From positions 79,950 to 112,134 of the forward strand of contig CADCVH010000031.1 of NCBI GenBank assembly GCA_902806085.1: a DNA stretch of 32,185 bases, read 5' to 3'. Origin of the DNA: an uncultured Rubrobacteraceae bacterium. GTDB lineage: Bacteria > Actinomycetota > Rubrobacteria > Rubrobacterales > Rubrobacteraceae. This document shows, in pieces, positions 13,642 through 31,833 of this stretch (position 1 is its first letter; every line of letters starts with the position of its first letter). Under the pieces are notes generated by a model that was given only the letters and a program-made list of their open reading frames with translations, was not told the origin of the DNA and made no database searches. A program made the position numbers and the translations under genes.

Positions 13642-14190
13642 TTGGCCCGGGGTCGCCCCTACAACGCGGCCATCGCCGCGCCCCAGAAGTGGGTCACGAA
13701 GCTCCACGCCGCCCTCTTCCGCGTCACGGACGGCAAGGTCGGCGGCCGGGTGGTCGGCAGCCCCGTCCTCCTCCTCGTCACCACCGGGCGCAAGAGCGGC
13801 CTGCGGAGGACCACGCCCCTGCTCTACCTCGAAGACGGGGAACGCCGGGTGATCGTCGCCTCCAACGGCGGCGCCGCGAAGCACCCCGTCTGGTGGCTGA
13901 ACCTGCGGGCCAACCCCGAGGCGACGGTCGAGATCGGGGGCCGCAAGACCCCCGTCCGCGCCACGGAGGCGCAAGGGGAGGAGAGGGCGCGTCTCTGGAA
14001 GAGGCTGGTCCGGATGTACGGGCCTTACGAAAATTACAGGAAAAAGACCGACCGCGAGATCCCCGTGATCCTGCTCGAACCCCTCGAACAGGGTGGCCCG
14101 AAGCCCACAGAAAGGACCCATCGTGAAGACGATCGACCGCGAAGAGCTCCGGCAGAAGATAGAACGCGGAGACGACTTCCTCCTCCTTGA
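13642..14190 (+). CDS. Deazaflavin (F420)-dependent nitroreductase family protein (DDN/PNPOx-like)
   Basis: A split-barrel flavin/deazaflavin protein of the mycobacterial Ddn family. The core shows TTGRKSGLRRTTPLLYLEDG, ASNGGAAKHPVWWLNLRANP, VEIGGRK, and the C-terminal RMYGPYENYRKKTDREIPVI. F420-linked redox on a small molecule, or quinone protection, is the family expectation. The TTG start at 13642 is one base after the preceding stop with GAGAAGG upstream. The core should end near LLEPLEQ (about 14085), but the frame runs on for 36 Pro/Arg-rich residues into the rhodanese gene. That tail is read from another gene's sequence and suggests a lost original stop. Confidence 0.85.
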   Translation: MARGRPYNAAIAAPQKWVTKLHAALFRVTDGKVGGRVVGSPVLLLVTTGRKSGLRRTTPLLYLEDGERRVIVASNGGAAKHPVWWLNLRANPEATVEIGGRKTPVRATEAQGEERARLWKRLVRMYGPYENYRKKTDREIPVILLEPLEQGGPKPTERTHREDDRPRRAPAEDRTRRRLPPP

Positions 14191-14443
14191 GGTGCTCGGC
14201 GAAGCGTCGTACAACCGGGAGCACTTGCCGGGTGCGGTCCGGTACGAGGACCGCGCCCAGGTGTACGGGCTCGCGCCTGACAGGGGCGCGGAGATCGTCG
14301 CCTACTGCTCCAACTTCAACTGACACTCCTCGACGCGGGTCGTCCGTGGGCTGACGGCCGAGGGTTACGAGAACGTCTCCGATTACGAGGGCGGCAAACA
14401 GGACTGGGTCGAGGCCGGCCTCCCCACCGAAACCGGGGGCTGA
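14123..14443 (+). CDS. Rhodanese-domain sulfurtransferase with in-frame TGA at a Cys position (candidate selenoprotein or point-mutated gene)
   Basis: Read through one TGA (14321-14323), this frame gives a complete 106-residue single-domain rhodanese. It contains TIDREELRQKIERGDDF, a degenerate GHLPGA-type turn (REHLPGAV), the active-site YCSNFN, then TGA, HSSTRVVRGLTAEGY, and the C-terminal GGKQDWVEAGLP. The first Cys (residue 62) is the usual persulfide-forming nucleophile. The TGA is codon 67, where related proteins usually have a second Cys (CX4C). Everything after the TGA is well-preserved family sequence ending in a normal TGA at 14441. The GTG at 14123 follows AAAGGA; it overlaps the nitroreductase tail. 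If TGA is a true stop, the product is a useless 66-residue fragment. Selenocysteine, a recent nonsense mutation or a sequencing error are the options. Confidence 0.65.
14338..14359 (+). promoter_or_regulatory. SECIS-like hairpin downstream of the in-frame TGA
   Basis: GGTCGTC (14338-14344) can pair with GACGGCC (14353-14359), seven pairs with one G-U. The 8-base apical loop is CGTGGGCT, with a G in its second position. The loop begins 21 bases after the TGA, within the distance range described for bacterial SECIS elements. GC-rich coding sequence forms such stems easily, so this is only compatible with selenocysteine insertion. Confidence 0.35.
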
Positions 14444-14519: not shown

Positions 14520-15212
14520 ATGCCAGACACCCTGGGCGATACCGCGCCGCGCCCCGTCCAGAAGGAGCCAGAAAGGTTCCGGACCCCGCGCCTGATCGTG
14601 GCGGCGAACGTCGCGTTGGCGGGGCTGTTGACCGTCCTGTCGCTCGCGGGGCTCGTCGGGGTGACGGACCCGAGCGCGTACCTCGGCACGGTCCTTCTCG
14701 CGGGCTCCCTCCTTCCGTCGAACCTCCTGCGCCTCGGGTGGTTCTCCCGGAGCAGGCGGTTGCGGGCGCTGGCGAGGCTGCGCAAGCCCCTCGGCGTCGG
14801 CGCGGGCGTGTGGTTCGTGGTGCACTCCGTGGCGAGCGTGTGGGAACACTTCGACCTCTCGGCGGCGCTCGGACCGCAGTTCGCCAGGACCGGCATCGTC
14901 TTGGGCCTCGTCGCGACGCTGGTGTTCGTCTGTATGCTCGCGACGTCCACCGGCCGGGCGCAGCGGGCGCTCGGCGGCAACTGGAAGCGGCTGCACCGGC
15001 TGGTGTGGTTCGCCGTCCCGCTGTCGCTCGCGCACGCCCTCGTGTCGGGCGGGTTGGAGCCGCTTGCCATCCTTCTCTACGGGGGGATCATGGCCTTCGC
15101 CGCCTTCGAGTACCGCGCGCTTACAAAGCGCGGCGCCGGCGGGGCGCGGACCCACCTGGTCCTCGTCGGCGCGGGTACGTTGGCGTCGGCCCTGATCTAC
15201 GTCGCGCTGTAG
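14520..15212 (+). CDS. Ferric-reductase-like / MsrQ-type heme membrane protein
   Basis: A 230-aa membrane protein with about six helices. The pattern resembles the ferric reductase-like transmembrane domain seen in MsrQ (YedZ). Candidate heme-ligand histidines lie in VVHSVASV, WKRLHRLVWF and LSLAHALV, and RALGGNWKRLHRLV is typical of this group. Such proteins pass electrons across the membrane, for example to a periplasmic methionine-sulfoxide reductase. No MsrP partner is present in the window. GGGGGAG sits seven bases before the ATG, and a GC-rich palindrome (14487-14502) precedes it. The N-terminal 20 residues are polar. The assignment to MsrQ rather than another b-type cytochrome is tentative. 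Confidence 0.65.
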   Translation: MPDTLGDTAPRPVQKEPERFRTPRLIVAANVALAGLLTVLSLAGLVGVTDPSAYLGTVLLAGSLLPSNLLRLGWFSRSRRLRALARLRKPLGVGAGVWFVVHSVASVWEHFDLSAALGPQFARTGIVLGLVATLVFVCMLATSTGRAQRALGGNWKRLHRLVWFAVPLSLAHALVSGGLEPLAILLYGGIMAFAAFEYRALTKRGAGGARTHLVLVGAGTLASALIYVAL

Positions 15213-15937: not shown

Positions 15938-17313
15938 GGAGGACTTTGCAGATCGCCGGCATGGGCCTCTCCGGGCTGCTCGTCAATTGGGGGCGCACCA
16001 TCCTGACCATGCTCGGCATCGTGATCGGGGTGGCCGCCGTCGTGCTGCTCGCCTCTTTAGGAAACGGGATACAGAAGAGCATCTCGGGCCAGATAAACGA
16101 CCTCGGCCCGAACCTGATCACCGTAAGCCCCGGCACGAGCGGCGAGCAGGACGGCGGGGACAACGGCCCGTTCGGCGCCGCGGCGGCGAGCACCCTGAAG
16201 CCTGAGGACACGCGGCTGGTCGAGGATCTCCCGGGCGTGGCTGCGGCCTCCTCCAACGTCTCGACCGTGGCGCCTGTGGAACGGGAGAGCGTCTCGTTCA
16301 GCGGCGTGGACCCTTCGTACAACGAGATTCGGGCCGTCGGCCTCGCCGCCGGACGTTTCGTGGAGGGGCGCGGCGAGGTCGTGCTCTCGGAGGCCGACGC
16401 GAGGAGGCTCCTCGATTCGGGGCCCGGCGAGGCCGTCGGAAAAACCTTGCCCGTCGGGACTCCACCCGAAGACGCGCCAGAACGGGACCCCGAGCGGGAC
16501 CCCGAGCGGGGCCAGAACCGACTCCCCGAACGGATCCCCGAACGGATCCCCGAACGGCTCCGCGAGCAGATCCCCGAGCGGCTCTCAGAGGACGCCGCGC
16601 CCGAGCAGGCGCGGGAACCGCGGCAAGAGCCCGCACCCGAGCCCGTCAGAAGATACGACGTGGTCGGGGTGGCCGAGGCGTCGGACGTGGAGTTCGGCCC
16701 GCCCATCCCCGAGGCGTCTTACGTGGCGACCGCGGACGCGCTGGAGATCTCCGGCGTGGAGACCGTGGGGCAGATCGTGGTGCAGGCCGAGAACGCCGGC
16801 GCGGTGGACCGGGTGGTGGGCGGGATCGGGAAGGAGTTGAGGGCCGCCCACGGCGGGGCGAGAGACTTCTCCGTGATCACGCAGCGGGAGCTGCTCTCCA
16901 CGTTTACGGAGATCACGGACCAGCTCAAGATCTTTCTCGCGGGGATAGCGGGGATTTCGCTGCTCGTCGGCGGCATCGGGGTGATGAACATCATGCTTGT
17001 CTCGGTGGCCGAGAGGACGAGGGAGATAGGCGTGCGCAAGGCCCTGGGGGCCACGAACGCGGACGTGCTCTTCCAGTTCCTCCTCGAGGCGATCCTGCTC
17101 TCCCTGATCGGGGGCGTCATAGGCGTGGCGGTCGGCGTCGTCGGCGCGGCCGTCCTGCCGGAGATCCTGACGGACCTTCCCCCGGCGGTGGTCACGGGCA
17201 ACGAGGTCGCGCTCGCCTTCGGGGTGTCGGCCCTGATCGGGGTGGTCTTCGGCGTCCTCCCCGCCTACCGCTCCGCCCGCCTGCAACCCGTCGAGGCGCT
17301 GCGCAGGGAGTAG
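15934..17313 (+). CDS. MacB-family permease (FtsX/MacB type) with PERx-repeat insertion
   Basis: A 459-aa permease starting GTG (15934) inside the ATPase stop. It has an N-terminal membrane helix (TMLGIVIGVAAVVLLASLG), a large extracytoplasmic MacB periplasmic core domain, and three C-terminal helices. The first of these bears GGIGVMNIMLVSVAERTREI and is followed by GVRKALGATNADVLFQFLLE, the FtsX-like motif; it ends LPAYRSARLQPVEALRRE. It works mechanically with the preceding ATPase to move or release a substrate at the outer face. Residues 182-217, in the extracytoplasmic domain, are nine consecutive tetrapeptides of the form PERx, followed by a Pro/Glu-rich linker. This insert is not part of the family fold as I know it. 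Confidence 0.9.
   Translation: MRRTLQIAGMGLSGLLVNWGRTILTMLGIVIGVAAVVLLASLGNGIQKSISGQINDLGPNLITVSPGTSGEQDGGDNGPFGAAAASTLKPEDTRLVEDLPGVAAASSNVSTVAPVERESVSFSGVDPSYNEIRAVGLAAGRFVEGRGEVVLSEADARRLLDSGPGEAVGKTLPVGTPPEDAPERDPERDPERGQNRLPERIPERIPERLREQIPERLSEDAAPEQAREPRQEPAPEPVRRYDVVGVAEASDVEFGPPIPEASYVATADALEISGVETVGQIVVQAENAGAVDRVVGGIGKELRAAHGGARDFSVITQRELLSTFTEITDQLKIFLAGIAGISLLVGGIGVMNIMLVSVAERTREIGVRKALGATNADVLFQFLLEAILLSLIGGVIGVAVGVVGAAVLPEILTDLPPAVVTGNEVALAFGVSALIGVVFGVLPAYRSARLQPVEALRRE
16477..16584 (+). repeat. Nine in-register 12-bp coding repeats (PERx)
   Basis: Nine consecutive 12-base units, typified by CCCGAACGGATC and CCCGAGCGGGAC, lie within the MacB permease gene. They translate as PERD, PERD, PERG, QNRL, PERI, PERI, PERL, REQI, PERL. 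The period is exact, and units 5 and 6 are identical, implying recent slippage or expansion, while units 4 and 8 have diverged. Confidence 0.9.
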
Positions 17314-30347: not shown

Positions 30348-31754
30348 GTGAAGCGCATAGTCATTTTCGGGGCCACCGGGGACCTCACGGCCCGGTACCT
30401 GCTCCCCGCCCTCGCGAAGCTCTACGAGGCGGGCGACCTTCCCGACGGGATCAAGATCATCGGCGTGGACCGCAGGGAGTGGAAAAACGACAAGAACGGC
30501 TTCCGCCGCCTGGTGCTCGACAGCCTGGAGCGCCACGCTTCTGGCATCTCCGCCAGCGCCCGCGCGAGGATGGTCACCGAGGTCCTCGAGTACCGCCGGG
30601 CCGACGTGACGGACGCGGGGAGCGTGATCTCGGCCCTGGAGCCCCTGACTGAACCGATCCTGGCCTACCTGGCCCTGCCGCCCGCCGTCTTCGCCCCGAC
30701 GCTCGAAGCCCTGAAGAAGGCCGGCCTGCCGGAGGGGAGCCGGGTCGCCATCGAGAAGCCGTTCGGGGTGAACCTGGAGTCGGCCCAGGACCTCAACCGG
30801 CTGCTGCACGAGTTTATGCCGGAGAAGGACATCTACCGCATAGACCACTTCCTGGCCTGGCAGCCGTTCCCGACGATCATGGGCCTGCGCTTCGCCAACG
30901 GCATCCTGGAGCCGCTCTGGGACCGCAACTACATAGAGCGCGTGGAGATCCTGTGGGAGGAGACGCTGGCGCTGGAGGGCAGGGCCGGCTACTTCGACCA
31001 CGCTGGGGCGTTCAAGGACCTGATCCAGAACCACCTCCTCCAGCTTCTCTGCCTCACCGCGATGGAGGCGCCCACCGCCCTCCACCGCCGCAACCTGCGC
31101 GACCGCAAGGTGGACGTCCTGCGGGCCATCCGGCACCTCTCCCCCGAGGAGGCGAAGACCCACACCGTGCGCGCCCGCTACGGGGCGGGCAGGATCGGGG
31201 AGAAGGAGATCCCCGCCTACACGGCCGAGGAGGGCGTCGATCCAGGCCGGGGGACCGAGACGTTCGCCCAGGTCACGTTCATGATCGACAACCTGCGCTG
31301 GGCCGGGGTGCCTTTCGTGCTGCGCGGCGGCAAGGCCCTGGGCCACTTCAAGGGCGAGATCGCGGTCCACTTCAAGCCGGTGCCCCACCTCGCCTTCCAG
31401 CGCGCGCAAGACCCGCGGCCCAACGTGCTCCGCGTCAGGCTCGGGCCGGACAGGGTAACCCTGAACCTGAACGTAAATGGCCCCTACGACCCCTTCGACC
31501 TCGAAAGCATAGAGCTCGGCGCGGACTTTGCCCCGCAGGAGTTCTTCGCGGCCTACGAGCGCCTGTTCCTCGATCTCGTCGAGGGGAACACCACCCTCTT
31601 CGTCCGGGCCGACGAGGCCGAAGAGTCGTGGCGGGTGGCGGCCCCGATCCTGGACGCCTGGGAGAAGGATCTGGTGCCGCTCCTGGAGTACCCTGCCGGA
31701 TCGGACGGCCCAGACGAGGCGTATTTGTCGCCGGGACGGGCCGGCGCCGGATAA
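30348..31754 (+). CDS. zwf: Glucose-6-phosphate dehydrogenase family protein with altered substrate site
   Basis: A 468-aa G6PDH homologue starting GTG at 30348 after GGAGGAGAG. It keeps the nucleotide motif FGATGDL, EKPFG (K137), the catalytic pair D166 (RIDHFLAW) and H229 (LIQNH), GRAGYFDHAGAF, and PFVLRGGK. By eye against the Leuconostoc enzyme, the substrate-binding K21 is Y17, the RIDHYLGKE motif is RIDHFLAWQ (so Y179 is F168 and K182 is W171), and K343 falls at F334 (with K335 adjacent). The dehydrogenase chemistry seems intact while phosphate binding looks weakened, so it may act on a different sugar or sugar phosphate. It lies 37 bases after the GH65 stop, and its own stop falls in a 12-bp repeat. 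Confidence 0.85.
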   Translation: MKRIVIFGATGDLTARYLLPALAKLYEAGDLPDGIKIIGVDRREWKNDKNGFRRLVLDSLERHASGISASARARMVTEVLEYRRADVTDAGSVISALEPLTEPILAYLALPPAVFAPTLEALKKAGLPEGSRVAIEKPFGVNLESAQDLNRLLHEFMPEKDIYRIDHFLAWQPFPTIMGLRFANGILEPLWDRNYIERVEILWEETLALEGRAGYFDHAGAFKDLIQNHLLQLLCLTAMEAPTALHRRNLRDRKVDVLRAIRHLSPEEAKTHTVRARYGAGRIGEKEIPAYTAEEGVDPGRGTETFAQVTFMIDNLRWAGVPFVLRGGKALGHFKGEIAVHFKPVPHLAFQRAQDPRPNVLRVRLGPDRVTLNLNVNGPYDPFDLESIELGADFAPQEFFAAYERLFLDLVEGNTTLFVRADEAEESWRVAAPILDAWEKDLVPLLEYPAGSDGPDEAYLSPGRAGAG

Positions 31755-31833
31755 CGAACGTGATAACGAACGTGATAACGAACGTGATAACGAACGTGAT
31801 AACGAACGTGATAACGAACGTGATAACGAACGT
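31750..31833. repeat. Seven perfect 12-bp tandem repeats
   Basis: GATAACGAACGT is repeated seven times without a mismatch (31750-31833) and the G6PDH stop TAA (31752-31754) is inside the first unit. A 12-bp period is divisible by three, so open frames run through it on both strands (ITNV; ITFV), but no ribosome site suggests translation. It may be an operator array, a spacer or a recent slippage product. Confidence 0.97.

Follow-up and report, generated by a model that had tools for sequence, protein, structure and literature searches.

A probable selenocysteine-containing rhodanese with a CX4U active-site loop in Rubrobacteraceae, and related forms in other bacteria

Introduction

Predictions of rhodanese selenoproteins go back to 2005 (PMC1088965, PMC2398784), and a review of 2026 lists 119 prokaryotic selenoprotein families, with five rhodanese forms defined by the motifs UxxS, UxxG, CxU, UxxG and UxxxxU (PMC13188914). 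Forms 1, 2 and 4, which include the Sargasso Sea and GOS sets, carry selenocysteine (Sec) in a rhodanese domain, in motifs (UxxS or UxxG) that start with the Sec and have no Cys before it (PMC1088965, PMC2398784, PMC13188914). In form 3 (NF041203, rhodanese_LYCAU) a Cys is followed by Sec two residues later, whereas form 5 (NF045694, TsoB), a rhodanese/DsbD fusion-like protein of 572 positions, has two Sec residues five positions apart. Neither a CxxxxU rhodanese nor a rhodanese-CBS form was found among the 119 families of the 2026 review (PMC13188914), and a search of the open-licence literature returned no paper on a CxxxxU rhodanese. In a survey of 2006, five selenoproteins were attributed to R. 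xylanophilus, and SelD is named there as a loss in sister organisms.

The gene described here lies in a stretch of 32,185 nucleotides from an uncultured Rubrobacteraceae bacterium (the window; contig CADCVH010000031.1). It encodes a single-domain rhodanese of 106 residues that keeps the catalytic-position Cys62 and has an in-frame TGA, read as Sec, five residues later. It therefore differs from forms 1, 2 and 4 in the preceding Cys and from form 3 in the spacing, although rhodanese_LYCAU is its best NCBIfam match (45.4 bits, with a cut-off of 115). TsoB has the nearest motif, but the present protein has only one Sec and scores 33.0 bits against a cut-off of 805 for that model. All three CX4U groups described below stayed under the cut-off of every NCBIfam 2026 model. 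The CX4U rhodanese is thus absent from the current selenoprotein catalogue, although individual RefSeq entries may already carry the U.

Results

Reading frame and domain of the rhodanese gene

The features of the locus are the following, all on the + strand:

13642-14190, +, gene of the F420H2-dependent quinone reductase family, immediate upstream neighbour (PF04075, 148.9 bits)
14109-14116, +, ribosome-binding site AGAAAGGA, 6 nt before the GTG start, identified in the sequence
14123-14443, +, predicted gene of a selenoprotein with a single rhodanese domain, 106 codons and a stop, with Sec at codon 67
14306-14308, +, codon 62 (TGC), Cys at the catalytic position in the active-site loop, from the alignment
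14321-14323, +, codon 67 (TGA), read as Sec (CX4U), from orthologues and from Cys in the paralogues
14338-14359, +, SECIS-type hairpin, stem 14338-14344/14353-14359 and loop 14345-14352, from comparative data
14441-14443, +, true stop codon TGA, from the sequence; the orthologue alignments end at about this point

Translation from the GTG at 14123 revealed the TGA of codon 67 as the sole interruption of the frame, without any frameshift. The Pfam rhodanese model (PF00581) matched residues 6-97 across this TGA in a single stretch, with 44.1 bits against a cut-off of 22.2. The continuous domain and the normal second stop proposed in the first-pass annotation were both borne out. The same was true of the ribosome-binding site that it had assigned to this start, and A/G-rich stretches also precede the starts of orthologues in the alignment. 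The active-site loop reads Y-C62-S-N-F-N-U67-H-S-S; C62, at its head, is nearly invariant in the family alignment, as expected for a rhodanese. The earlier reading of the loop as CX4U, with Sec in place of a second Cys, was also correct; paralogues carry Cys at this position.

Conservation of the TGA in orthologues

When the family was searched, frame-intact orthologues with a single TGA were found in 22 of 39 Rubrobacteraceae genomes, and a residue-level check of the orthologues placed the TGA at site 67. Among 23 distinct close orthologues this codon was always TGA, and never TAA or TAG. As the genomes sharing it include assemblies of one to four contigs (G011, G041, G195, G053 and G237), assembly error does not explain the TGA, and a misread codon is judged from the sequences to be a very unlikely source of it. 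A scan of GTDB contigs recovered TGA at codon 67 in named Rubrobacter, in Rubrobacteraceae MAGs and in four Acidobacteriota MAGs; the codon is therefore not restricted to one strain, whereas a TGA confined to this strain would, by the first-pass annotation, have refuted its reading.

The ratio pN/pS, calculated over 22 distinct orthologues, was 0.427 upstream of the TGA and 0.463 downstream, a pattern that translation of both halves would produce. In paralogues from Rubrobacteraceae and from other organisms, site 67 is Cys, encoded by TGC or TGT. These paralogues (for example YCSNRACQNS, CX4C) are about 40-54% identical and often occur in the same family of organisms. In a gene tree of 85 domains and 104 columns, from which column 67 was left out, the Sec and Cys rows clustered strongly, with 6 changes compared to a mean of 17.7 after shuffling. 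The tree is poorly resolved, with many open forks, and is compatible both with an ancestral Sec and with its repeated origin.

No TGA orthologue was found in several nearly complete, selB-positive members of the family (G026, G065, G087, G098, G119 and G216), and the rhodanese is therefore regarded as an accessory selenoprotein. In one relative (G206) the reading frame is also broken at another point, 5' of the TGA. In a sister species (G076), which shares its genus with the TGA-bearing G053, the orthologue (L044, 1498-1812; AENLRD) has Ala in place of Cys62 and Asp in place of Sec67, and its stem is weakened to 5 of 7 pairs, while the genome keeps selB. This orthologue has likely lost catalysis, and the joint loss of both residues suggests, at the level of sequence comparison, that they cooperate.

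A SECIS-type hairpin downstream of the TGA

A hairpin starts 14 nt past the UGA. Its stem has 7 bp (GGTCGTC/GACGGCC) and its loop of 8 nt (CGTGGGCT) is separated from the TGA by 21 nt; C and G, with which the loop begins, are invariant across the TGA sequences. The position of this element, its loop distance and the G at the second loop position had been described exactly in the first-pass annotation, and the stem is now backed by covariation. In 29 distinct TGA sequences, 98% of the stem cells were paired, and four of the seven stem pairs changed on both sides, as in the replacement of U-A by C-G at one pair in 13 sequences. None of 500 shuffles reached any of five stem measures, and partners slid along the sequence paired in 9-68%.

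The corresponding positions of 17 Cys paralogues were paired in only 42% of cells. Therefore, the hairpin signal is tied to the UGA and not to the protein family. Synonymous divergence was also low in the hairpin codons 72-79 (pS 0.165), whereas codons 80-103 gave 0.457 and the upstream part 0.604. In single-sequence folding of the window RNA, the stability of a 56-nt segment containing the stem was not above that of shuffled sequences (z +0.74), and a 42-nt segment, which folded differently from the stem, gave z +0.39. The case for the hairpin is therefore comparative and not energetic, since the RNA alone folds no better than shuffles.

Selenocysteine machinery in the host genome

The host genome (4.41 Mb in 133 contigs) contains selA (486 bits), selB (316 bits against a cut-off of 242), a tRNA-Sec gene and selD. 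The selA, selB and tRNA-Sec (selC) genes adjoin one another on one contig (C130), and ARAGORN identified the tRNA-SeC with the anticodon tca; selD lies on another contig (C74) and has one in-frame TGA of its own, in the motif AGUGSK. All four genes that the first-pass annotation had proposed to look for were thus found, including selB and selC, whose absence it had named as a refutation.

Within the family, selB was above the cut-off in 29 of 39 genomes, the remainder being mostly incomplete drafts; among 296 sampled Actinomycetota genomes it was present in 176, and TGA forms of any group were present in 52. The selB gene was detected in 46 of the 52 TGA-bearing genomes and in 130 of the 244 without a TGA form (Fisher p 9e-7), in tallies compiled by hand from the searches, with the selB cut-off taken at about E 1e-72 where bit scores were unlisted and with one genome (G231) entered from the search table only. 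In the six TGA-bearing genomes where selB was not found above the cut-off, all were drafts of 73-94% completeness. Of the four Acidobacteriota MAGs with a TGA orthologue, three have selB and the fourth does not.

Gene neighbourhood and other features of the window

The F420H2-dependent quinone reductase family gene is conserved next to the rhodanese, on its upstream side, in many orthologous loci. In the window the last 68 bases of the reductase frame lie within the rhodanese gene; most of the relatives compared show no such overlap, their reductase frame stopping short of the rhodanese start. Whole or in part, the window and about nine other loci share the gene order SDR, ABC ATPase, two ABC-2 permeases, F420H2-dependent quinone reductase family protein and rhodanese; the Acidobacteriota loci do not have this order. 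The neighbourhood is no more than faintly suggestive of a redox link.

Directly downstream of the rhodanese gene is a gene for a ferric-reductase-like membrane protein (14520-15212; PF01794, 40.3 bits). Elsewhere in the window, a perfect 12-bp tandem repeat (GATAACGAACGT, 7 copies, 31750-31833) lies near the end of a frame read from its translation as glucose-6-phosphate dehydrogenase-like, and degenerate 12-bp repeats at 16477-16584 encode a Pro-Glu-Arg rich stretch in a gene read as a MacB-like permease.

Other CX4U rhodaneses

A search of the phylum for TGA rhodaneses yielded a second group, in which a rhodanese with the motif YCWDxxUDMSPRAAWRL is followed by CBS domains (Pfam). A dedicated search detected this fusion in 35 of the 296 sampled Actinomycetota genomes (hand count), and each of the 37 fetched copies that covered the site and matched the fusion had TGA there. 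A 7-bp hairpin (CGAGCCG-CGTGG-CGGCTCG) lies 3' of the fusion TGA and was 99.6% paired over 36 distinct sequences. Its stem hardly varies: a single pair changed on both sides, a value reached by 20 of 500 shuffles, which is weak covariation, and a double change from C-G to U-A was seen in three sequences of a wider set of copies. The loci of this group, L078-L103 and L126-L155, belong to other Actinomycetota. From these sequence data, the rhodanese-CBS fusion is probably a widespread, unannotated selenoprotein.

The third group is an N-terminally extended CX4U rhodanese (YCNDYTUEAS), represented by two loci (L076 and L077) in two genomes of one family. Its N-terminal part of about 280 residues was read from the sequence as acetyltransferase-like. 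On balance, we favour the view that the single-domain, CBS-fusion and N-extended forms make up a large uncatalogued set of Sec-dependent sulfur-transfer proteins in Actinomycetota and some Acidobacteriota.

Predicted structure

The AlphaFold model has an intact rhodanese fold (pLDDT 95.2), in which the loop carrying Cys62 and Sec67 sits between the strand 57-61 and the helix 69-79. The same fold is found in E. coli GlpE, in the Francisella structure 6mxv and in the B. halodurans structure 3nhv (Z 16.5-16.6, 1.4-1.9 Å rmsd), and also in the rhodanese domain of YgaP; of all solved structures, GlpE-like rhodaneses came closest to the model. All of these differ from the present protein in being ordinary Cys rhodaneses, and by alignment the loop of 6mxv is two residues shorter.

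Discussion

Taken together, the continuity of the coding frame, the conserved UGA, the covarying hairpin, the Sec machinery and the Cys counterparts make this gene very probably a genuine selenoprotein with Sec at residue 67, and the insertion of Sec at codon 67, judged from the genomic evidence, is close to certain. SelB with Sec-tRNA(UCA) would bind the hairpin and deliver Sec to this codon. Reading the TGA as a real stop, in a decayed or truncated rhodanese or through a sequencing error, would be in keeping with the break that it makes in the frame, with the further break in G206 and with the loss of both active residues in G076. A stop, however, would hardly recur as TGA at the same codon in the 23 close orthologues, followed by sequence under purifying selection, a covarying hairpin and a conserved end; a pseudogene and a sequencing error were both rejected on these grounds, and the probability left to them is minimal. 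Conservation of the coding frame beyond a UGA is not enough to identify the amino acid, and a suppressor tRNA or a reassigned code could in principle insert Trp, Cys or Gly. This is just as improbable, given a whole Sec system, a hairpin tied to the UGA, paralogues with Cys at the site and an ordinary TGA at the end of the same gene, and on these four points the reassigned code was discarded.

The function is less settled. A rhodanese cysteine of the Cys62 type is expected to accept sulfane sulfur. In the catalytic scheme that we propose, drawn entirely from the position of the two residues in the loop and from knowledge of the family, a donor would pass sulfane sulfur (or selenium) to Cys62, which would hold it as a persulfide; Sec67, in the same loop, would attack this persulfide so that sulfide is released or the sulfur handed on. 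The resulting Cys62-Sec67 selenenylsulfide would then be reopened by a thiol reductant. The enzyme might thus be a reductive sulfurtransferase or persulfide reductase, with Sec67 as the resolving residue for the Cys62 persulfide, a tentative assignment to which we give slightly less than an even chance. Two chalcogen residues on a single loop could also form a redox sensor or relay that cycles with oxidants, sulfur transfer being incidental; the F420H2-dependent reductase family gene upstream and the CBS fusion of the second group, whose CBS domains would couple the sensor to nucleotides, fit this picture. It appears rather unlikely, as the active members keep the rhodanese fold and the catalytic-position Cys, and as the F420 link comes from a neighbourhood that is not universal. 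Rhodaneses are also able to bind selenium, and Cys62 and Sec67 could bring zero-valent selenium to SelD as a selenopersulfide. In addition, tRNA 2-selenouridine synthase uses a rhodanese domain (Wolfe et al. 2004, cited in PMC1794560). Such a delivery role is improbable, since the rhodanese contig is distinct from those of selA-selB-selC and selD, and since the nearly complete selB-positive relatives without an orthologue place the protein outside the core selenium machinery.

Under the proposed persulfide reductase scheme, Sec would stand at the resolving and not at the catalytic position, which, if true, would be a new use of selenium in sulfane-sulfur chemistry. Sec replaces the second Cys of the rhodanese loop while the catalytic Cys is kept, and the Cys counterparts, with TGC or TGT at site 67 and without the conserved hairpin, are found in the same organisms; this natural Sec/Cys pair is a ready comparison for what selenium adds to sulfur-transfer chemistry. 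Gene-calling programs for which every TGA is a stop cut such genes to fragments of 66 residues or miss them, so that a whole set of selenium enzymes can go unnoticed. Their recognition would enlarge the known selenoproteome of Rubrobacter and of other Actinomycetota.
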